From positions 1 through 20,481 of the IMG/VR virus record IMGVR_UViG_3300037485_000230: a stretch of 20,481 bases of DNA. One strand, given 5' to 3'. This document shows, in pieces, positions 1,334 through 11,264 of the stretch. The notes under the pieces were generated by a model, which was not told where the DNA came from, searched no databases, and worked only from the letters and a program-made list of their open reading frames with translations. Both the position numbers and the translations under genes were made by a program. The stretch comes from a virus. Every line of letters begins with the position of its first letter. Within the stretch, counting starts at the first letter, position 1.

Positions 1334-2332
1334 TCAGGTGATGGGGTCAGCGACGCCGGGGTTGCCAAAGACAAGAAGCTGGAATGCGGCGTCAGCATTT
1401 GCGCCAGTGCCGTCATTATGCGTGAGAACAAGGGCTGTACTTGCACCGCAAGAAACTTGGGCAGTGTGCCCACCATCGCGAGTTGTGGCGACAGCAACCT
1501 TGACTCCAGTGCCAAGGTTTTGCGTGAAGTTTACTTGATATTGGCCAGTGTCAACGTAGGTGATGCTGGAAACGTTTTTCAGTTCTTCGAGCGTTGCCGC
1601 CGCGCCGGCATTCGTCTGATTACAAGCAGCTAGCATGCAATCAAGTTGGGTTCGCTTGACGAGGTCAGCCGCAGAGGTCGGTTGAGTCGTAGAATAGAAC
1701 TCAGCGTCTTTGGCTTGAATGCGTCGTGAAAACAGGTTCGCGAACGGCAAAGACAAAGACCCTAGCGTCGGCACGCCGGCCACCGATGGCAGGATCGACA
1801 CTGTGACAACGACGTTGCGCACGAACGCATCCCACAAGCTAGTCAGGGCACCAAGAAGTGACCCAGACGCGGCAGACGGCACGAGGTTGCCCGTGATTCG
1901 AGTTGGCGCGGCAACGATGACCGCCACGCCAGCGCCTGTTGAATCGCCAAGGTTCAGCGTGCTGCCAGACCGCAGATCGACGGTTGAGCCAGAAGACGCC
2001 GTCAGCTTCTCGCCCGACGCCAGCGTGATGTCACCGCCAGCCAGGACAGCCGACGCCAACGTGTAGACCAGCAGGTTATTTCTGTCCTTGACCGTGATGC
2101 TGTAGTTGCCGGCGACGTAGAGGTTGACCGGAGACCCGTTGACGACAGGCACGCCAGACAGCGTGCGGATTGGTTGTGCCACGGTGACAGTCAACGCCGC
2201 GTCACTGTAGACAGTGACAGGAACCGTGACGGGGTCGGTATTGGCCGTGCCGATATAGATATAGCCGTTGACGAGTGGAGCACCGTTGGAATCGGTGAAC
2301 AAAGAAAACGGGGGATTGGCTCTGACGCTCAT
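1334..2332 (-). CDS. Tailspike/short tail fibre with P22 gp9-type head-binding domain
   Basis: Residues about 8-95 match the N-terminal head-binding domain of P22 tailspike: FTDSNGAPLVNGYIYIGT with TDPVT, then a VYSDAALT strand, QPIRT, GVPVVNG and a YSITVKD ending. In P22 the corresponding stretch reads GKIYIGQIDTDPVN and attaches the spike to the gp4/gp10 tail hub, both of which are encoded upstream here. The remaining 230 residues are short Ser/Thr/Gly-rich strands (AASGEKLT-like, SGSTVDLRSGSTLNL) and a C-terminal VSSITYVDTGQYQVNFTQ domain of the sort that ends many fibres. P22 tailspike has 666 residues with a beta-helix endorhamnosidase; at 332 residues no such enzyme is present, so this is likely an adaptor or non-enzymatic fibre. 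The start overlaps the stop of the upstream gene (ATGA) and has AAGGGTG 6 bases upstream. Confidence 0.85.
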   Translation of the reverse strand: MSVRANPPFSLFTDSNGAPLVNGYIYIGTANTDPVTVPVTVYSDAALTVTVAQPIRTLSGVPVVNGSPVNLYVAGNYSITVKDRNNLLVYTLASAVLAGGDITLASGEKLTASSGSTVDLRSGSTLNLGDSTGAGVAVIVAAPTRITGNLVPSAASGSLLGALTSLWDAFVRNVVVTVSILPSVAGVPTLGSLSLPFANLFSRRIQAKDAEFYSTTQPTSAADLVKRTQLDCMLAACNQTNAGAAATLEELKNVSSITYVDTGQYQVNFTQNLGTGVKVAVATTRDGGHTAQVSCGASTALVLTHNDGTGANADAAFQLLVFGNPGVADPIT

Positions 2333-4686
2333 TGTTCACCCTTGGTCTGGCGTGCTGCTTGAAGTGCAGCGGTCAGCCACTTTTCAGCCGCTTTTGGTTC
2401 GCGTGGCACATTGGCAGCTTTGGCGAAATCGCGCCACCGTTGCGAGTTGACGACACGCCGAACCGTCTCTTTTTTTACGGTCGGATTGGTGGCGCGTTCA
2501 ATGGCCAGCGCGCTGAACTCTGGACTGATAAGCATCTTCCCGACCTTGGCAACAACGTCTTTGTCGCCCTTGGCGATCAACGTAAACAACGCATTGGCGC
2601 CAACAGCGCCAAGCCCGCCGCCACCAGCGCCACCGATGCCGACGGCTGCAGCCTTGCCCATGGCGCTGCCAGCGATGCGTTGCACGAACGATTCAGCTTC
2701 AAGCGCTTGCATGAATGGCTGATTGGCTTTGCCAGTCTGCTTGACGTTGGCCCGTGCAGACGTGATGCGCTTGGAGATTTCGAAAAGGTCTCGCAACGCT
2801 GCAGACCGCTCTGGCCCAAGTGATTTCGACAGTTGAGCGAAGATCGGCTCATTACCCTTGGCACGGAGACCAGCGTAGGTTTTCGCGAATTCAGAGAAAC
2901 CAAAGCCAGCTTCTGCAACGCCTTGCTTTGCGCGAGTCGCCGACGACAGCGCCGTCATCAGCACTTCACCGTGGAGGTCTTGAGGCACAGCCTTCAGCAA
3001 CTTGGTCAGCCGTGCGCTGTTGCCTTTGCTGGCGTCAGCGATGGCGCCTTGCATGAGTGCTGCAACGCTGCCTTCTTTGTCGCGGCCAAAGGCGCCGATC
3101 ATCCGGTCTTCAAGCCCCTTCTGTTTGGCGGTCATCTGATGCGCCAGACGGACCTTGTCACGGATGACTGCACCACCAAGGCGCTCAGCGTTGGCGAGTT
3201 CGTCTGCCTTGATTGCCTGTTCAAGGATTTTCAAGCGCCGTTGGTCGTTGCTCATGAATGGACCGTCGCCCATGCGGACAGCGCGCTGCAGGTCAGCCTT
3301 GACGCGTTTGAGCGCTTCATGTGTGGCGCGTCCCGCCTGAGCAGGCATGTCGGGATTGACTCGCCCACGTTCGGCAAGGCGCATCATCATTCGTTCGCCT
3401 TCGGAGAGTGCGGAAACGTCTCCGTCAAGGTCTTTGAGCGATTGCCTAATAACCTCGTCGACGTTGTCCAGTGTGACCGGAGCCGATGGCTTGATGACCT
3501 CGTCAACGCTGTTGTAAAGCGTCTTCGCTTCGGTCTTGAGCGCATCTCGTGACGCTTGAAGTCTCGCCAGCACCTTGTCGGAGACAGCGCCAGGGGACGG
3601 TGCACCGTCGAATGCCTGCACCACCTCGTCTGCTTTGTCGGATGCCTCCTTGACGGTGCGCTGCCAAGCCGCTTCAGCTTCGCTGCCGATCTTGCCTCGC
3701 ACGCCACCGAGTGCCGACCGAATCTGCTCACTTTCGGAGAAGACGTCAGCAGGCAAATCGATCCCAAGTCGCTTGGCTGATTCAACAGCAGCGGGATCGA
3801 CGGCGACAGCTTCAGCAAGTTGGCGAGTCGCCGCTGTGTTCCCTTCGCTTGCACGTCTGGCAAGGTCAGCCAGTTTCACGTCGTCGATGGGTGCGCCCTT
3901 GGCGACGACAGGAGCCGCCACATCGGCAACGACAGGAGCCGCCGCAGCTTCGGCTGCTTGGCGCGTAGTGCTGCCTGGAATGGCGTCTAGCGCGATGTTG
4001 GCTGCACGGCTGACACCGCGCCTGACGGCTTGACCAGCGGCTTGCGCGACAGGGATAGCGCCAGCGGTCAGGCCTGCTGCTGCTATGTCGGTCGGGTTGA
4101 ACTCTCCGCCCGACGCTGCTTGAGCGACTTCAACGCCGCCCTGCAGAAGTGCTTCACGCCCCATTATGGTCGCAATACCGCCAGACGCTGCACCAGCGGC
4201 GTACAACGGCAGCACTGCCCCAGCCCTTACCACGTCGCCAAAATCAAGGCCCGGTTTGACGGCAAATTCTTTGCCGGCTTTCGGACTGAAGGCGAAGAGG
4301 TTTCCCTTTTCGTCCTTGCGGACTTTCATGCCCGGTGAATTCGCCGTCAAAATCTGCAGGGCTTCTTCAGGGCTTGCCGCAAGCGCTGCCACATTCTTGA
4401 GCGTGCCAAGGTCGGTCCACTCTGGAATCTGCGACCAGTCAGGGGCCGCCTCTGTCTCTGGCGTTCGACGCTTTGAGCCTGTGACCATCTCGCCAAGGCG
4501 ATCCATCAAACCCGGTTCTGGCGTGGCTGGTGGGGCAGGTTGTGCAGATGCAGGAGCCATGGACACGCCTTCAGGCATGACCATTTCACCCGACGCCAGA
4601 TATTTATCAAGCGCGGCGCGGCGCTCTGGATCTAGAGTGCCGTCTTGATACGCCTTCAAGGTCTTGGGTCCAACAACGCTGGCCAT
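2329..4686 (-). CDS. Ejection (DNA transfer) protein, P22 gp16-like by position
   Basis: A 785-residue protein, mostly predicted helix and Ala-rich. It is the third of three consecutive proteins in the slot of P22 gp7-gp20-gp16, which are packed in the capsid and pushed into the host envelope with the DNA. Two Gly/Ala hydrophobic stretches could insert into membrane: about residues 150-175 (AGAVLPLYAAGAASGGIA) and about 670-695 (KAAAVGIGGAGGGGLGAVGA). Long charged helical stretches (for example around TVKEASDKADEVVQAF and LKRVKADLQRAVRMGD) lie between them. No transglycosylase catalytic motif was found, unlike T7 gp16. It is longer than P22 gp16 (609). GGAG lies 7 bases before the ATG, four bases after the preceding stop. 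Function is assigned from synteny, size and composition, not from clear sequence identity. Confidence 0.7.
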   Translation of the reverse strand: MASVVGPKTLKAYQDGTLDPERRAALDKYLASGEMVMPEGVSMAPASAQPAPPATPEPGLMDRLGEMVTGSKRRTPETEAAPDWSQIPEWTDLGTLKNVAALAASPEEALQILTANSPGMKVRKDEKGNLFAFSPKAGKEFAVKPGLDFGDVVRAGAVLPLYAAGAASGGIATIMGREALLQGGVEVAQAASGGEFNPTDIAAAGLTAGAIPVAQAAGQAVRRGVSRAANIALDAIPGSTTRQAAEAAAAPVVADVAAPVVAKGAPIDDVKLADLARRASEGNTAATRQLAEAVAVDPAAVESAKRLGIDLPADVFSESEQIRSALGGVRGKIGSEAEAAWQRTVKEASDKADEVVQAFDGAPSPGAVSDKVLARLQASRDALKTEAKTLYNSVDEVIKPSAPVTLDNVDEVIRQSLKDLDGDVSALSEGERMMMRLAERGRVNPDMPAQAGRATHEALKRVKADLQRAVRMGDGPFMSNDQRRLKILEQAIKADELANAERLGGAVIRDKVRLAHQMTAKQKGLEDRMIGAFGRDKEGSVAALMQGAIADASKGNSARLTKLLKAVPQDLHGEVLMTALSSATRAKQGVAEAGFGFSEFAKTYAGLRAKGNEPIFAQLSKSLGPERSAALRDLFEISKRITSARANVKQTGKANQPFMQALEAESFVQRIAGSAMGKAAAVGIGGAGGGGLGAVGANALFTLIAKGDKDVVAKVGKMLISPEFSALAIERATNPTVKKETVRRVVNSQRWRDFAKAANVPREPKAAEKWLTAALQAARQTKGEQ

Positions 4687-4690
4687 TACT

Positions 4691-6118
4691 TCACTCCGTC
4701 AGCGATTGTGTGGACGTTGCGAACACCCGGCGCATTACATCCGTCTCAGTCTCGCCGGCTTGTACCGGAAGCCCTGCGACTGTGAAACCACCACGCGCCA
4801 CACCGGCTCCCTTGTTGCGAGCCAAAAACTCAGCACGGGCGCCCTTGACCTTGGCGTCAGCGCGACCGACACGCTCCATGGCACGCGAGAAATCGGCCAG
4901 CAGCTTTGGGTCGTCGGTACCCTCAGGAAAACCGCCCTTGACAAGAGCAATATCCGCGTCAGATGCCGCACCCGCTGGCAGGTTCGAAACAACACCCTTG
5001 GCCACCATTCCATCATAGCGCTTGCGAAGAACGCTCACGGCGTCCTGTCTGCCAAGCACGCTATTGATCAATTCGTTGGCCTTGCCCTGCGTTCCGGTCG
5101 GCACGGTATCACCAATGCCCAGCCCACCCTTGAACTTGTCGAATTCAGACGCCAGCTTGCCCCAATCGTTAGCCTGCAAATCAGCCGCAACACTCTCGTC
5201 GCTCATTTTCAGGACAGGCGCCACGAGATTGGTTGGCAGGTCGGTAGCCTTGAATTCCATTTCCTTGAGGCGAGCGGCAGACTCGTCGGCGAATTTTCGT
5301 TCGTCGAGGTCAAGGCGCTTGGAATCAATGCGCATGTCATTGTAATACTTCGCCGCTTGAGCCGTTTCCAGCTTGAGTGCGCTTGCAATCTGTTTGCGGC
5401 GCATCTCTGCGTTGGTGTTGGCGATATCGGCTTCGGCTTCGCTTTTTCTGATCGTAGGCTCGAGGGTCATCGACTTTTCGACGTTCTCTGTGAACTTCTC
5501 AGGGTCTTCCATGGCCACGACAGCGCCAAGCATATTAGCGGCAGCAATGGGGTTTTGTTCAATGCGCTGCGCCAGCGCTCGCAATGCGTCGCCCTTCTCC
5601 TTGGAGCCGCTTGATTGATCGTAGGCGCTAGCGCGTTCGTTCAGAAACGCCAGCGCCGCTTCTTTGTTGCCACCAAGCAACGCGGCGCGGACTTGCCCCG
5701 CCTCGCCCACACGTTGGCGTCGCTCTTCCGTCGACAACCGCGCCATGGTGGTTTCAAGGTTTTTGGCCTCTTCGGGATACTGGATCGAGAATTTGGTCAG
5801 CGCCTCCGTCGACAAGGGCTGCGTCATCAAAGCCTGTTTGGCTTCTTGCTTTTGTGCCGCCGCAATCGCCGCGCTTTGCGCCATGGCCTGTTCCATCGAA
5901 CGCTTCACGTTGGCATCAGCTTCAGCAGCCAGACCCTGACGGAGCCCAAGTTGTGCAGCCTGCAACTCCATAGGGCGCATCTGTGCAGCCTGCTGGCGCT
6001 GCAAGCCCTGTTCGCGAGAATCAAGCAAGCCCTGGCCAACTTGCATTCCTTGCATGATCTGCTGCGCTGGATTCAGCGGCGCAAGATTGATCCCGTATTG
6101 GACTGGAGCGATAGCCAT
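4691..6118 (-). CDS. Ejection (DNA transfer) protein, P22 gp20-like by position
   Basis: 475 residues, close to the 471 of P22 gp20, and in the middle of the ejection trio. The N-terminus (NLAPLNPAQQIMQGMQVGQG) followed by Gln/Ala-rich helix up to about residue 100 is typical of internal virion proteins that start with an amphipathic Q-rich coil. A central helical region (SKRLDLDERKFADESAARLK) probably forms coiled coil. There is no membrane segment or enzymatic motif. The start codon overlaps the upstream stop by one base (TGATG) and GGGAG lies 7 bases upstream, so it is both coupled and well initiated. The likely role is forming part of the conduit that carries phage DNA across the host envelope; that role is inferred from P22 synteny. 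Confidence 0.72.
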   Translation of the reverse strand: MAIAPVQYGINLAPLNPAQQIMQGMQVGQGLLDSREQGLQRQQAAQMRPMELQAAQLGLRQGLAAEADANVKRSMEQAMAQSAAIAAAQKQEAKQALMTQPLSTEALTKFSIQYPEEAKNLETTMARLSTEERRQRVGEAGQVRAALLGGNKEAALAFLNERASAYDQSSGSKEKGDALRALAQRIEQNPIAAANMLGAVVAMEDPEKFTENVEKSMTLEPTIRKSEAEADIANTNAEMRRKQIASALKLETAQAAKYYNDMRIDSKRLDLDERKFADESAARLKEMEFKATDLPTNLVAPVLKMSDESVAADLQANDWGKLASEFDKFKGGLGIGDTVPTGTQGKANELINSVLGRQDAVSVLRKRYDGMVAKGVVSNLPAGAASDADIALVKGGFPEGTDDPKLLADFSRAMERVGRADAKVKGARAEFLARNKGAGVARGGFTVAGLPVQAGETETDVMRRVFATSTQSLTE

Positions 6119-6849
6119 CAGAAACTCCCTGTAGCGAGTTTGGCGCCAGTGCCGGCAACTTGGAGACCCATATCCATAGCCTCACGGCGTCCAGCCAGCC
6201 TGGCTTGCGTTTCGCCAAGAATGCCACCAGCCCTGTAGGCGCCGATGTCCTGCTGAAGTTGTCCGGTCATGCCGGCGCCTTGCATGCCAAGCTGGGCACC
6301 TTGCAAACCGAATTGACCCTGTTGTCCAGCTGCACCAGCGCCTTGCTGTGACAGGCCCGCAAGTTGACCGTACTGCTGCTGAATCAGCTGCTGGAGGATT
6401 TCTGGACCAAGTTGGCCCAACGCCGCTTGCGTGTTGCCACCACGGAGACCGCCTGTAGCGCTTGCGTTTTGCAGGATGCCCCCTGAGGCGGCTTCCATCA
6501 TTTGCGCGTAAGCAGGGCCACCACGGAGCGCTTCATAGGCCTTCGCCTGTGCCTCTGGTCCGAGTGAACCAGCAAGGGCTTGCTGCATTGCAAGTGAATT
6601 GGTTCCGGCTTGGGCGTATGGGTCAAGACCAGCCTGTGCCTGCTGTGCAGCAGCGGCTGCAGCGGCGTTGGCCTCTTCCTGCCCAACCAGTGCACCTTCA
6701 CCTGCTTTGACTTGCTCTTTTGAAGCTCCGCCAACCGCTTTTGCTTGGTCTTCACCAAAGCCGCCCGTGGAACCGTAAATTCCAGCACCAATGCCGCCAA
6801 CCACAAGGGCTTGTGCCGCTAGACTGAGACCGATCCCAATTGCGCTCAT
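6118..6849 (-). CDS. Ejection protein, P22 gp7-like / DNA transfer protein
   Basis: The chosen ATG at 6849 gives 243 residues (P22 gp7 has 229). It overlaps the SET-gene stop (ATGA) and has a strong GGAGG 6 bases upstream; a 24-residue upstream extension is rejected. Residues 4-26 form a Gly/Ala hydrophobic, glycine-zipper-like segment (IGIGLSLAAQALVVGGIGAG). Residues 70-145 match a widespread phage internal-protein family: LDPYAQAGTNSL, then a GPAYAQMMEAASGGILQNAS stretch and GGLRGGNTQAAL. Residues about 150-200 are a Gln/Gly-rich heptad-like repeat (LSQQGAG, GQQGQFG, LQGAQLG, MQGAGMT). This suits a protein that is packaged and then inserted into the outer membrane during ejection. Family recognition is good; the exact role is inferred. 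Confidence 0.78.
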   Translation of the reverse strand: MSAIGIGLSLAAQALVVGGIGAGIYGSTGGFGEDQAKAVGGASKEQVKAGEGALVGQEEANAAAAAAAQQAQAGLDPYAQAGTNSLAMQQALAGSLGPEAQAKAYEALRGGPAYAQMMEAASGGILQNASATGGLRGGNTQAALGQLGPEILQQLIQQQYGQLAGLSQQGAGAAGQQGQFGLQGAQLGMQGAGMTGQLQQDIGAYRAGGILGETQARLAGRREAMDMGLQVAGTGAKLATGSF

Positions 6850-7652
6850 GACTGCCCTCCGACGATGACCGCTTGGCGATAGTCCACGGTGATTTCTTCG
6901 CCAGAGTCGCCGCCATGGCACCCGGCAATGTCGCGCAACGCTACCACGTCGATTGCACCTGCGCCACCCGCCACCATGGCAGCGTTCGGTGCTCTGCTGT
7001 GATTGACAAACCGCCCTGCTGGCGTGCGCTGTCCGTTGATGCGTGCTGGAGCGACAACGGCGCCAGCCTTGATGTGTGACGACGTGAAAAGCCCTTTTCC
7101 TTCAATGGGGCTGTCTAGCACCTGAAGGGTTGAGGACCACGGTTCAGGCATTGGCACCACGTCATCGGTGCGCTCTGACAGCGCCCGCACCTCGTCGACA
7201 GTCCACGGCGACGCTGCCACAAACGCGGCAAAATCATCGCGGTCTGGCTGGGCACGATTGCCGGCGAAACGCATGACAGCGTCACGCCATTCAACCATGT
7301 AGGCGCTGTCGTCAAAAAGCGTGGTCTCCAGCACACCCAAGTCGGTCTCTGTCGTCGCCCACACGTTCACCCATACGGTCGGCTCATGCACGATAGCCAG
7401 CTTGCGCCCTGGCTGGCCGGTGAACGTCTGTGGCGCCCGTAGCGTCTGCCAACCGTTAGGCGTCAACAACGACAAGCACCCTGCAATCATGATGTTCTGG
7501 CAAGGTTCGCGATGTGCTCGCCCAAGGTAAAAACCGACAGGTAGCACAGCCTCACGCATGTAGAGGCCGGGGCCAAAGTGATGCACAACGCGCACTTCCA
7601 CGTTTGGCAACATCAAGCCCACGGCTTCCATCTTGTCGAGGTCCAACGTCAT
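6846..7652 (-). CDS. Cupin-like domain fused to SET domain (predicted protein-lysine methyltransferase)
   Basis: The ATG at 7652 overlaps the upstream stop (ATGA) with no good Shine-Dalgarno, so expression depends on coupling; the protein has 268 residues. Residues about 15-112 match the small cupin-like phage domain: HHFGPGLYMREAVLPVG, HREPCQNIMIAGCLSLLTP, a TVWVNVWATTETDL end. Residues about 110-175 are a linker. Residues about 176-260 are a compact SET domain: EGKGLF (184-189, AdoMet-binding G-x-G), RFVNHSRAPNA (214-224, the N-H-S pseudoknot strand) and GEEITVDY (251-258, with the catalytic-type Tyr258). SET proteins transfer methyl from AdoMet to lysine. Only about 25 residues separate the first two motifs, so the SET-I insert is very short and there is no post-SET Cys cluster. 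It sits just before the gp7-like gene, in the position of P22 gp14. Substrate unknown; virion, ejection or host protein are all possible. Confidence 0.86.
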   Translation of the reverse strand: MTLDLDKMEAVGLMLPNVEVRVVHHFGPGLYMREAVLPVGFYLGRAHREPCQNIMIAGCLSLLTPNGWQTLRAPQTFTGQPGRKLAIVHEPTVWVNVWATTETDLGVLETTLFDDSAYMVEWRDAVMRFAGNRAQPDRDDFAAFVAASPWTVDEVRALSERTDDVVPMPEPWSSTLQVLDSPIEGKGLFTSSHIKAGAVVAPARINGQRTPAGRFVNHSRAPNAAMVAGGAGAIDVVALRDIAGCHGGDSGEEITVDYRQAVIVGGQS

Positions 7653-9130
7653 TCGTAGTACCCAATCGGCGTCACTGAACCACGCAGCGTGCCTGTCGCA
7701 GCGTTGCCGATGAACGACACGATGACGTGCAGATACGACCCCGGCGGCACTACCTGTGGCGCGTCGCCAAAGTCGACGAAGAAGCCGGGCGCCACGGTGC
7801 CTGCTGGTGCCAGCGCCAGAAACGACTGAGACCCAAGATGAATGCGCTTGGGGCTGACCGTCGTAGGAGGTCCGACGCCGTCCACAGTGGCCAGCGTTGC
7901 GGCCGACGAACCGAACCCCGCCAGCCATTCAATATGCGTATAGGTGGCGCCAAGGACAGTTGAAACCACGGTTTCGTTGACGCGGATGCCACGAATCACG
8001 AGGTCTTTTCCAGGGATGGCGACGGTGCTAGCGGGATTCAAATACGAGAACAGCGGATAATGGACATCGGCAATGCCTGCAAGTCCAGACGTACCAACGG
8101 TCATCGGTGACGTAGTGATCCATTTGCCGCCAAGCGCCGGGTTTGCTGGAGCGGTGTTGGCGGTGAACGTCGGTGCAGCCAGCAACGTGATCAGGCTGTT
8201 GGATGTCTGCGCAACAGCCGTTCCCTGCTGCGTCTGGATCGATGAACCACCGTTGGCATTGATCGTTGCTGGCCATGACCGCGTCGTGATGGCGTCGCCA
8301 AGTGTGACGTTGACGAATCCTATTTCGATTCGACGTGCAGCCGACGCAGCGCCAGAGTTGAGGACGCGGAATTGCAACGGCAGTGCAGCCGATTGCGTCG
8401 GTGCTCCTTGGTTTGACGGGGTTGGAATGACCCCGCAAAGAGTATCGTTGATCCAATATTCAACGTCGTTGTTGCTGATTACCATCACGTATTTGTTTAC
8501 GTCGGTGGCGCTGTAGAGGCCAATCCCGCTACGGGCTTGCACCGCTGTCGTCGTGATGTTGACGTTGTTTTCAACGCCAGCGAAGTTGACGACGCCCTGC
8601 AACTGGCCACCAGCCAGACGACGCCAAAACACGCCATCAAGCGGCGTTGCCACGCCGGTCATCAGGCCAAGACCCCACTCGCTGCTTGAGTTGGTCGACG
8701 TCGGGTTTGCCTCACGGATCTGCGTTTCCACGATTTTTGAAAACGTACCAAAAAGAGGGAACGTCTTTTTGGTCGACAGGTTGATCGTGTTGTTCAACGC
8801 CACGGCATTGCCGCTATTGAGCACGCCAAAGCCAGCGGCTTGAGCATAGGTCATCGCCGTTGCGACTTGCACAAAAGCAGCGTCTAGGACGGTGCCTGAA
8901 AACGATTTATTGAGCCAGAGCGTGTCGACGCCAACGCGCAAACGGTAATCGTCGGATACCTCAAGCGCACGCTGCAGACGGTTGCCAGTGATGTCGCCAG
9001 CGTCAACCTCTGACGACATCGCAACGAATCCCGCAGTGCCTTCGTCGACTGGCGTGTTGACGTTGAGATTGAATGTTGCGTCGACGTTGGCTTTGCCAGC
9101 GACGCTGCCACCAGTGGAGATTTGAGCCAT
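7649..9130 (-). CDS. Probable virion structural (tail/fibre) protein, 493 residues
   Basis: A 493-residue Ser/Thr/Val/Ala-rich protein with alternating strand-like segments and almost no long helices. The N-terminal 60 residues look like an attachment segment, then RLRVGVDTLWLNKSF followed by a SGTVLDAAFVQVATAMT stretch starts a jelly-roll-like domain of a type I associate with hypothetical phage virion proteins; WRRLAGGQLQGVVNFAG and VMISNNDVEYWIND-like strands fit a concanavalin-like fold. The C-terminus ends in a second beta domain (SYLHVIVSFIGNAATG). It lies between the tail-needle slot and the cupin-SET gene, with starts and stops almost touching (2-base gap upstream, ATGA overlap downstream). 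No enzyme motif is visible. It has no counterpart in the P22 order, so it is probably a lineage-specific fibre or decoration protein. Confidence 0.72.
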   Translation of the reverse strand: MAQISTGGSVAGKANVDATFNLNVNTPVDEGTAGFVAMSSEVDAGDITGNRLQRALEVSDDYRLRVGVDTLWLNKSFSGTVLDAAFVQVATAMTYAQAAGFGVLNSGNAVALNNTINLSTKKTFPLFGTFSKIVETQIREANPTSTNSSSEWGLGLMTGVATPLDGVFWRRLAGGQLQGVVNFAGVENNVNITTTAVQARSGIGLYSATDVNKYVMVISNNDVEYWINDTLCGVIPTPSNQGAPTQSAALPLQFRVLNSGAASAARRIEIGFVNVTLGDAITTRSWPATINANGGSSIQTQQGTAVAQTSNSLITLLAAPTFTANTAPANPALGGKWITTSPMTVGTSGLAGIADVHYPLFSYLNPASTVAIPGKDLVIRGIRVNETVVSTVLGATYTHIEWLAGFGSSAATLATVDGVGPPTTVSPKRIHLGSQSFLALAPAGTVAPGFFVDFGDAPQVVPPGSYLHVIVSFIGNAATGTLRGSVTPIGYYE

Positions 9131-9132
9131 GA

Positions 9133-9831
9133 TTAATCCCGCGTGTAGTTGATGAGATAGGCGCCGTCAGCGTCGCCGTCGAGTGATACCACAAGGAGCG
9201 TGAACCCGACACCAGCCGAGATGCTGGCGACAGACACCACGATAGGTGCCATCTCCATCTCGTCGGCATCTCTGCCCGCGGCTGTGCCGACGCTGGCCAC
9301 GATGTTGCTGCCAACAGTCACGCCAGCGTCAACGACGGTGATGGTGACAGCATCTGCACCACCGCTGAACGTCGCTGTGGCTTGGCCAAAGGTGCCACCG
9401 CCACCCGATGGCGTTTGCCATGTCGCCGTCGTCGCAGACGTTGCGGTCAGCACTTGCCCAAGCACAGGAGGACCAGAAAGACCGACATCGACGTCTGCGC
9501 CAGTGGTCGCCAGCGCTTCAGCCGCTGGAATGGTCCCGCTTGATGCCGATGTGATGCGCCCGTCAATGTCGACGGTCAGGCTGGTGAGTGTGTAGGAACC
9601 CGCCGTCACTGACGTTGGCGCAAGCTCGTCAGGTCCAATGACGTTGAGCCCGATGGTCGGGTCTGGATAGGTGCCAGACAAATCACCACCTGCAGGCCCG
9701 GTCGGTCCTCCACCACCAACAGCCAACGAATCGACAAACGCGAACAGCTTTTCAAACTGGCGAATGGCCTCGGCGTTGTTGTGGCAGACAACGGCAAGCT
9801 GGTCTCTTGACAGTCCAAGTGATCGCGCCAT
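9133..9831 (-). CDS. Tail protein in the P22 gp26 (tail needle) position, collagen-like linker
   Basis: 232 residues (P22 gp26 has 233) directly after the gp10-like gene, sharing one base with its stop (TAATG). Residues 1-36 are helical ([20 protein letters not shown]) and probably anchor to the tail hub; a short Gly-rich linker with [19 protein letters not shown] (42-60) is a motif common in phage fibres. The rest is Ala/Thr/Gly/Val-rich, ending in a beta domain with [33 protein letters not shown] and [13 protein letters not shown]. The long trimeric coiled coil of gp26 is absent. By position it may plug the tail or be a fibre; by sequence it is simply a tail-associated protein. Its start has only a weak Shine-Dalgarno, so it is probably translated by ribosomes finishing gp10. 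Confidence 0.72.
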
Positions 9832-11264
9832 TAGACAGCCAGCCCTTCGGCTTCGATCTCCAGCCGCATGATGCCCAGGTGCGCGTCTGACGTGCCCTGG
9901 AACCGCTGCCCACGGAAGTTACGCATGAAGCCGTTTCGACGCCACACGAGGCGCTGCGTTCGCTCACCAATGGTACCAACGCTGATGCTTTTGCTCTGCG
10001 ACCATTGGACGCCATCGACACTGTAGGATGTGCTGATCGTGGGGTCATCGCCAAGCGCAACGCGTCCAGACAGCGCCACCAATTCAAGGCTATGAATAAT
10101 AGCGCCTTTGCTGGCGTTGTAGGCGAAGACCGTCTGAAACTCCCATCCCACCGTCTCGCCCCAATGAGTGCCGATGGTCTGGTCCGTGTAGCCGATGCGT
10201 GCGCTGTTCGGGTCTCCGACGTTCCAGCGGTCGTAGCACCACACGAAGAAGCGGGCGCGATAGAGCCCAAAGCCCGTCAGCGACGTCGACAGCGTGAACC
10301 ACACGGCAGCCTTGACGGCTTGCGTGGCCGCCATGTCGTAGACCAGCGTTCGGTCTGGCAGGTGAACATACAAGTGGCTGTGGCCATTGTCGTTGCGTGG
10401 CTCGAGGACCGACAAGGAAAGTTCCTGTTCGGTGAAGCCAGCCAGAACGCGGTCAATTTCAACGGTGCTGATCTTGTTGCTGGACCCGTTGCCGGCGATG
10501 TAGATGCCTGGCTGTTCGTTGCGACCGCTGCCGATGAAGGCCACGGCCTCTTCGTAAATGCAGCAGGCTTTTGCGCCAACGCACCCACGCATTATCTGCG
10601 CGCCTTCAATGCGCTGGAACGGAAAGCCAGCGCCACCGACGTTGTCGAACATTTCAATGGTGTAGCGGTTGAGTGCGACAGGTTCGTTGCGAACCTTGAG
10701 CAATGCAATAACCGGGTCTGGGTCAGCTTCGCTGGAACCGTACTTCAAAGGTTCAACAGCAGTCGGGTCGGTCAGTTCTGTGACGACGAGAAATTCGCCA
10801 TCTGTCGTCATGAAGTAGCCATCGACCCAGATAACGTCAGCAACAAAACCAAGGTCAGGATCGGTGACCTGAACAACGGAGGCGCCGTCAAAAAGAAACA
10901 AGCCGCCGCCACTGGCGATGGCAAGAATTCCCATCGGATATGCCGGCGACGACGGACCATAGGCCATTGAAACAGGAGGACCGTTGCCCACGTTTCCAAG
11001 GTCCGAATACACGCCAGCGGCTGACAGGCTGTAAAGCCGTGAACCAATGACGCGATACAGAATACCCATCCAGTTGATGCCGCCACGAGTCACGCCAGTG
11101 ACGGCGCCAACGGTGCCCACCTGCACGATGCCGTCCCCTGGCCTCAGATACCCTTCGCTGATGCCGGACGGCACTGGCGTCGGCACAAGGTTTTTCGGGT
11201 AGCTGATGCGGACGTCGGGAGCGCCAGCGCTGGAGTAGACACCGGAGATGACAGGGACTTGCAT
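9831..11264 (-). CDS. P22 gp10-like packaged DNA stabilisation / tail hub protein
   Basis: 477 residues, against 472 for P22 gp10. Matching landmarks in the same order: [12 protein letters not shown] near the N-terminus (P22 GYLRSFPGI), [12 protein letters not shown] (P22 VSMAHGRTSQ), [21 protein letters not shown] (read around residues 260-280; P22 SVYIIGSGQASPIATASIEKI), [10 protein letters not shown] (P22 HLPRHVLVYD) and [16 protein letters not shown] near the C-terminus (P22 KRVLWKRVGRIRRLIG). gp10 binds below gp4 and closes the portal channel so packaged DNA does not leak. The ATG overlaps the preceding stop by one base (TGATG). The gp4-like gene is nearby but separated by one additional gene, unlike P22 where 4 and 10 are adjacent. 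Confidence 0.92.

Follow-up and report, generated by a model that had tools for sequence, protein, structure and literature searches.

The window, by which we mean the whole stretch of DNA that was analyzed (the 20,481-base IMG/VR virus record IMGVR_UViG_3300037485_000230), carries a P22-type virion operon on its minus strand. The operon includes portal, coat, gp4-type, and gp10-type genes (recognized with Pfam), a gene that encodes a cupin-like domain fused to a SET domain (cupin-SET), and a gp7-class ejection gene; its further genes are probably tail genes (Table 1). The first-pass annotation had placed the cupin-SET gene in a virion operon, and this holds, as the operon is of the P22 type and the adjoining gene encodes a gp7-class ejection protein. 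The ATGA overlap with the neighbor at each end, which it had also described, is present (7649-7652 and 6846-6849). Late expression of the gene is predicted solely from its membership in the operon.

Table 1. The cupin-SET gene, its parts, and the neighboring genes, in window coordinates.
Feature	Positions	Strand	Basis
Cupin-SET gene, 268 residues	6846..7652	-	Open frame, Pfam, PHROG, structure model
Cupin domain, residues 14-112 (bounds approximate)	7317..7613	-	PHROG 24280 over 4-112, PHROG 12032 over 14-114; fold matches 17-107
Helical linker, residues 113-172	7137..7316	-	Helices in the model; L099 and L102 have linker plus SET with no cupin attached
SET domain without SET-I, residues 173-262	6867..7136	-	Pfam, fold match, profile, alignment
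GxG motif GKGLF, residues 185-189	7086..7100	-	G187 in 92/92, G185 in 91/92
RFVNHSRAPN motif, residues 214-223	6984..7013	-	N217 and H218 in 92/92
GEEITVDY motif with catalytic Tyr, residues 251-258	6879..6902	-	Y258 and E253 in 92/92
Small ejection protein of the P22 gp7 class; proposed as both partner and substrate	6118..6849	-	PHROG 598 (DNA ejection), E 3.4e-16; iterated profile
Ejection-protein codons 1-3, Met-Ser-Ala; covariation is at residue 3	6841..6849	-	N-terminus comparison
Probable second ejection protein (gp20 place)	4691..6118	-	Position only; Pfam and PHROG searches gave no match of weight
Probable third ejection protein (gp16 place)	2329..4686	-	Position; PHROG 6704 (unknown function), E 1.5e-43
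Upstream gene, probably tail	7649..9130	-	No family match of weight (Pfam, PHROG)
P22 gp10-type head closure protein	9831..11264	-	PF11134, E 2.1e-32; PHROG 578

The C-terminal half of the protein is above the curated cut-off of the Pfam SET family (PF00856; 28.9 bits and E = 1.6e-6, versus a cut-off of 22.4). A profile that was built from 18 relatives, with the window left out, gave the window protein 141.9 bits, versus 4.5 bits for the best of 1000 shuffles. All 41 members of our alignment A1 match PF00856 at E ≤ 0.1, which is looser than the curated cut-off; a relative outside A1, from Rhodoferax phage P26218, scored 16.2 bits, which is under it. A structure model made from 41 sequences (mean pLDDT 92.6) matches the SET domain of MLL1 (7u5v; Z of 10.7, rmsd of 1.4 Å over 81 residues, 37% identity), and this match indicates, at the level of the predicted fold, the knot-like C-terminal core that is typical of SET. 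The GxG, NHS, and E-L/I-x-x-D/x-Y motifs are all found in the window protein, including the tyrosine (Y258) that we take to be catalytic from SET enzymology. Across 92 distinct SET sequences, S181, G187, R209, N217, H218, E253, and Y258 are invariant, and residue 219 is serine in 72 and alanine in 20. The proposal that this gene is a cupin-like/SET fusion with SET hallmarks is thus upheld by the Pfam score and by fold matches to a cupin and to the MLL1 SET domain. Binding of AdoMet and methyl transfer to protein are predicted for this domain from its family.

The very short SET-I that had been described is confirmed, and absence of this segment is a trait of the family: 29 or 30 residues lie between the second glycine of GxG and the asparagine of NH in all 92 distinct sequences. 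In the phmmer alignment to MLL1, residues 45-81 of the MLL1 chain are skipped at the SET-I position. As SET-I is variable among SET enzymes, we do not count its absence against membership in the SET superfamily. The median dN/dS was 0.072 for the SET domain and 0.059 for the cupin domain (76 related pairs, which are not independent of each other), so the SET domain is under strong purifying selection. In the main lineage, a CxGG insert loop (residues 245-250, at 6903-6920 in the window) lies ahead of the catalytic strand. Cys245 is present in 63 of the 92 sequences and falls in a gap in 21, and the PH1-like and L101-like SETs that were viewed do not have the loop.

The N-terminal half of the protein matches the phage cupin families PHROG 24280 and PHROG 12032. 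In the model, residues 17-99 superimpose on 7eyp (Z of 10.5, rmsd of 1.9 over 82 residues) and form the double-stranded beta-helix of the cupins; four model helices (105-112, 117-133, 135-147, and 152-159) connect this part to the SET domain. PF07883 matches 15 of the 41 members of A1 at E ≤ 0.1, and the window protein is not among them. The histidine cluster of metal-cupin motif 1 is also absent: the window protein has R45 and C51 at positions that are histidine in 62/72 and 68/72 sequences. Because of Arg45 and Cys51, the metal site has probably been lost from the window's cupin, and judging from their residues, the cupins of its relatives may bind a metal.

Other phages encode the cupin without SET, as a single-domain protein of about 145-200 residues placed before the ejection gene, and these single-cupin proteins look like partners of the ejection protein. 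Some of these genes (L088:3941-4435 and others) are named tail fiber adhesin or short tail fiber protein, names for which we found no support. We considered a role for the cupin as a tail-fiber adhesin and set it aside as unsupported, since the label stems from PHROG names. The main text of an article on a phage with a cupin-only gene does not contain the terms structural protein, mass spectrometry, or tail fiber (PMC9011153).

Our sample of the family began with the best 80 of 135 relatives' loci; with five named-phage records and the window, these gave 72 distinct sequences, and adding bacterial-genome, PH1-like, and L101-like loci gave the 92 distinct SETs. (The loci were collected by similarity from best-match lists, and these counts are not frequencies in nature.) Eight of the 12 bacterial-genome loci encode cupin-SET (one of them, L104, is partly masked), while L106 and L107 encode other SET proteins. 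The search for the same architecture that the first-pass annotation had recommended therefore finds it both in further phages and in several bacterial contigs. Comamonadaceae ALPHA2B has the linker and SET without the cupin (L099:7779-8345), with a gp7-like frame that starts Met-Ser-Leu 281 bases downstream. In Paraburkholderia ferrariae, the cupin and the linker-SET are two genes that overlap by 4 bases (L102:7123-8570); they lie next to frames that look, by eye, like replication genes and an integrase, and no ejection gene was present in the stretch viewed. A role in defense or counter-defense was considered as well, and PADLOC gave no match at E ≤ 1.

The frame that follows cupin-SET was readable in 83 of 85 SET loci. 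Of these frames, 73 match a gp7 profile into which P22 gp7 had also been drawn; as the profile was iterated on the very sequences that it scores, its E-values are inflated. By eye, the remaining 10 resemble them in their hydrophobic starts. In the cupin-only loci, the next frame was readable in 52 of 53, and 41 of the 52 match the same profile.

The window protein thus lies directly before the small ejection protein, and the same slot is occupied by gp14 in P22 and by gp13 in T7. As the window protein has no match to PF11090 or PF11039 at E ≤ 1, it may work similarly to gp13 and gp14, but it is not a member of their families. The Pfam name of T7 gp13 is probable scaffold protein, and by sequence we found no solved relative with a profile search and a best E of 0.39 with the single sequence. 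The structure model of T7 gp13 (pLDDT 93.7) has a GNAT fold: Foldseek matched it to PA4794 (E = 6.5e-5) and to RimI (E = 2.2e-4), and a fold comparison gave a best Z of 12.1, with RimI at 11.2. By eye, gp13 does not have the acetyl-CoA loop. In T7 (L188:3001-3414) and its relatives (L201-L216), the next gene, gp14, starts with Met-Cys-Trp in 16 of 17 loci. We also suspected by eye that P22 gp14 is a GNAT, and a profile comparison with T7 gp13 and with bbp24 of BPP-1 gave nothing; this test is weak because the sequences in the gp14 alignment are 94-98% identical to its first row. Nor did bbp24 match the gp13 profile. Overall, this slot appears to house a protein that partners with the first ejection protein during assembly.

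The start of the ejection protein differs between phages with and without SET. In the loci that we compared at first, the SET phages mostly had Met-Ser-Ala or Met-Ser-Gly and the cupin-only phages had Met-Ser-Trp or Met-Ser-Val; we set this pattern down as a hypothesis and then fetched further loci. In total, residue 3 is alanine or glycine in 106/110 SET loci versus 2/56 cupin-only loci (83/86 versus 2/51 if only unique N-termini are counted; P = 5.9e-31, Fisher exact test, which ignores relatedness). Position 3 shares 0.797 bit of mutual information with SET status, and no other position among 2-24 exceeds 0.206 bit. Serine at residue 2 is common to SET and cupin-only phages.

Among the loci that were fetched after the hypothesis was set down, the rule was kept in 17 of 17 with SET (L262-L271 and L277-L283) and in four of the five cupin-only loci with a readable next gene (the exception is L275), although some of these are close kin of earlier loci (L262 is Pseudoalteromonas phage PH1 again, and Thalassomonas phage BA3 and X14 resemble VvAW1). 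We also examined eight more named phages. One turned out to encode a GNAT next to its cupin. A bulky residue 3 is present in six of the remaining seven, and the exception is the cupin-only phage HSd1, which has glycine. No gene in the HSd1 record is annotated as an acetyltransferase or methyltransferase. HSd1 has a cluster of genes (L297:34974-39969) annotated as ATP-grasp protein, amidoligase, COOH.NH2 ligase, and gamma-glutamyl cyclotransferase.

The exceptions to the rule are L039, L009, L030, and L032 with SET and L250, L275, and HSd1 without it. L099, which has SET without a cupin and was never within the count, is also an exception (Met-Ser-Leu). L102 (no adjoining ejection gene) and L071 and L272 (next gene unreadable) were left out of the count. 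Start codons were picked with a score that favors a small residue 2 and is blind to residue 3. We considered whether the rule could arise from codons that overlap the upstream gene, but it persists in both overlap classes: if the start lies at least 6 bases inside the upstream gene, alanine or glycine is found in 29/29 SET and 0/38 cupin-only loci, and for other start positions, in 77/81 and 2/18.

In Bordetella phage BPP-1 (L217:4501-5831) and in the spring-water phage MW202722 (L294:1013-2321), genes for a GNAT, a cupin, and a gp7-class protein follow one another between the terminase gene and the portal or adaptor genes. The two GNATs are 43% identical and both are over the PF00583 cut-off; the BPP-1 protein has the RxxGxG loop (by eye). 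In both of these divergent phages, the gp7-class protein starts with Met-Ser-Gly. Five BPP-1-like loci, which are close kin and were counted separately as GNAT, all have glycine at residue 3. These data suggest that active modifying enzymes in the slot accompany a small residue 3 of the ejection protein.

Three to five independent SET changes support the rule. Alanine or glycine is found in 12/12 PH1-like, 8/8 L101-like, and 86/90 main-lineage SET loci (cupin lineages were assigned by hand from trees and queries). On a cupin tree with 84 rows, SET status changes five times, and three of these changes are forced by supported branches. Three independent pairs could be drawn on supported branches; over 200 pairings, the mean agreement with the rule was 2.9 of 3, and pairs seldom opposed it. 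With three to five SET events, statistical significance is out of reach. The cupin trees are short on columns, and 38/69 and 42/81 of their inner branches are open. An AU test against a single SET clade gave P = 0.032; the group was named before the tree was made, but it contains a long-branch row. The closest comparison is between L271, which has the SET module and alanine at residue 3, and L273, which has no SET module and valine. Their cupin DNA is 89% identical, and they are 77% identical from the ejection gene onward. As they are alike on either flank of the SET module, this argues against wholesale replacement.

The first-pass annotation had suggested that the SET protein modifies virion proteins, and residue-3 covariation now supplies a concrete candidate, the adjoining small ejection protein: its N-terminus differs with the presence of SET, which points to it as the target of a putative catalytic activity. 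The prediction that the target is a lysine fares less well. Lysine is what the SET family predicts, yet what changes together with SET is the start of the ejection protein, and the best lysine column of that protein is lysine in just 44% of 100 SET sequences. Lysine content is alike with and without SET (means of 2.2% and 2.6%), and no lysine at all is present in 2 of 102 complete ejection proteins from SET loci (L278 and L281, which are close kin) and in 1 of 56 from cupin-only loci. Given the lack of a shared column and the lysine-free members, we disfavor the idea that the common target is one of the ejection protein's lysines.

Instead, we propose that the cupin-SET protein is a dedicated assembly partner, a SET methyltransferase with a cupin dock, that methylates the small ejection protein at its N-terminal end before packaging. 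The cupin part would dock the freshly synthesized ejection protein. The SET part, whose substrate side would be open because SET-I is missing, would take in the N-terminal end (Ser-Ala or Ser-Gly after loss of Met1) and would methylate it at the alpha-amine or nearby, before the ejection protein enters the procapsid. A methionine ahead of serine is normally removed. This would leave a free serine alpha-amine, and a small next residue would ease its entry into a narrow channel. The sequences themselves show the two folds, the conserved catalytic residues, the gene pairing, and the covariation at residue 3; we infer the physical contact, the catalysis, and the modified atom, and we hold the proposal tentatively, as one that could well be right. 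Several observations count against it: the exceptions to the residue-3 rule (L099 included), the small number of SET changes on the cupin tree, and the setting of L102, whose cupin and SET genes lie near replication-like genes. In addition, a host protease of P22 cleaves off the first 20 residues of gp7, and a phage lacking them still yields about 60% of the burst, according to an excerpt of PMC8402733.

A broader version of this idea is that SET, lacking SET-I, has shifted from lysine to N-termini (with the alpha-amine of Ser2 as the target and Ala/Gly then needed), that GNAT plus cupin performs N-terminal acetylation in other phages, and that short-tailed phages have a general N-terminal modification station with interchangeable enzymes. 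This extension is speculative and we think it unlikely to hold.

The main competing explanation is that the protein is an active lysine methyltransferase that acts on another virion or host protein, and that the residue-3 pattern reflects linked inheritance of a cassette. To our knowledge, the SET enzymes described to date act on lysine, our lysine comparison covered the ejection protein, and a lysine elsewhere could be the target. Linked transfer would be easy, as the cupin-SET and ejection genes overlap or adjoin, and SET changes on the cupin tree are few. However, a cassette would not obviously single out position 3 among positions 2-24 while the rest of the N-terminus does not stand out, three lineages converge on Ala/Gly, and L271 and L273 are similar on both flanks of the SET module. 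We regard this explanation as doubtful, but it deserves serious consideration. We think it quite unlikely that the SET part is non-catalytic and serves as a module for binding the ejection protein, as the cupin alone may do by way of a bulky residue 3 in cupin-only phages. In known SET enzymes, SET-I forms the lining of the substrate groove, and it is missing in the entire sample; also, cupin-only phages do without SET, and T7 gp13 retains a GNAT fold despite its apparent lack of the acetyl-CoA loop. Against this, the invariance of N217, H218, and Y258 goes beyond what a binding module needs. Finally, the cupin-SET protein might be packaged in the particle, delivered into the next host, and methylate a host protein there, as was also suggested in the first-pass annotation. 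The location of the gene within a group of ejection-protein genes would fit, but in the T7-type phage phiPsa17, particles contain gp14, gp15, and gp16, and the slot protein gp13 does not appear among the rows examined in the proteome table (PMC4517105). Delivery strikes us as highly improbable.

Ejection proteins form the conduit by which the DNA of short-tailed phages crosses the cell envelope. If an enzyme is tied to the N-terminus of one of them, as we propose, then the modification would be testable by mass spectrometry in named phages. It would also assign a role to PHROG 34170 and to cupins that now carry tail-fiber names, and it might bring to light a SET enzyme whose substrate is of a new type. 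The terms methyl, acetyl, and post-translational are absent from the main text of a review (PMC8954989).

Parts of the family have been annotated before: MW202744 includes a "pbcV-1 histone H3-lys 27 methyltransferase structure", and a 263-residue "SET domain containing protein" from an uncultured phage was matched over 115 columns. Our full-text literature search on phage SET proteins, which we judged by titles and the starts of abstracts and which mostly did not extend to subscription journals, returned no paper on cupin-SET fusions. The genome paper for P26218 does not mention a SET domain or a methyltransferase. SET and cupin are known kinds of domains; the compact SET, its fusion to a cupin, and the link to an ejection protein are new as far as we have seen.

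Among known SET enzymes, the MLL1/KMT2 SET domain is the best profile match in the PDB (E = 3.1e-8) and has the same catalytic motifs as the window's SET. MLL1/KMT2 proteins differ in that 37 of their residues (the SET-I region) have no counterpart in the window and in that they are eukaryotic histone enzymes with no cupin. The comparison to vSET (A612L of PBCV-1), which the first-pass annotation had recommended, revealed a likeness to another small viral SET (Foldseek E = 2.2e-4, profile E = 3.4e-4). However, vSET stands alone (119 residues in its PDB entry) and is, by the name of that entry, an algal-virus histone H3 Lys27 methyltransferase; we know of no cupin and no neighboring ejection protein for vSET.

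Among phage families, the window protein matches PHROG 34170 nearly end to end (14-262, E = 3.7e-56), as do the P26218 and PH1 proteins match it. The function of PHROG 34170 is listed as unknown, and it is the family itself rather than a described system. The cupins of PHROG 24280 and 12032 are homologous to the window's cupin and usually lie in the same place before the ejection gene, but they have no linker and no SET in the 53 cupin-only loci. T7 gp13 and P22 gp14 occupy the same slot, and gp13, with its predicted GNAT fold, has the fold of a modifying enzyme; the two differ from the window protein in fold or family, GNAT for gp13 and DUF2824 for gp14. Finally, BPP-1 (bbp24-bbp23-bbp22) and MW202722 resemble the window in having a modifying enzyme and a cupin before a gp7-class protein with Gly3, but their enzyme is an acetyltransferase encoded by a separate gene, not a fused SET, and the genes lie in the terminase-portal/adaptor region.
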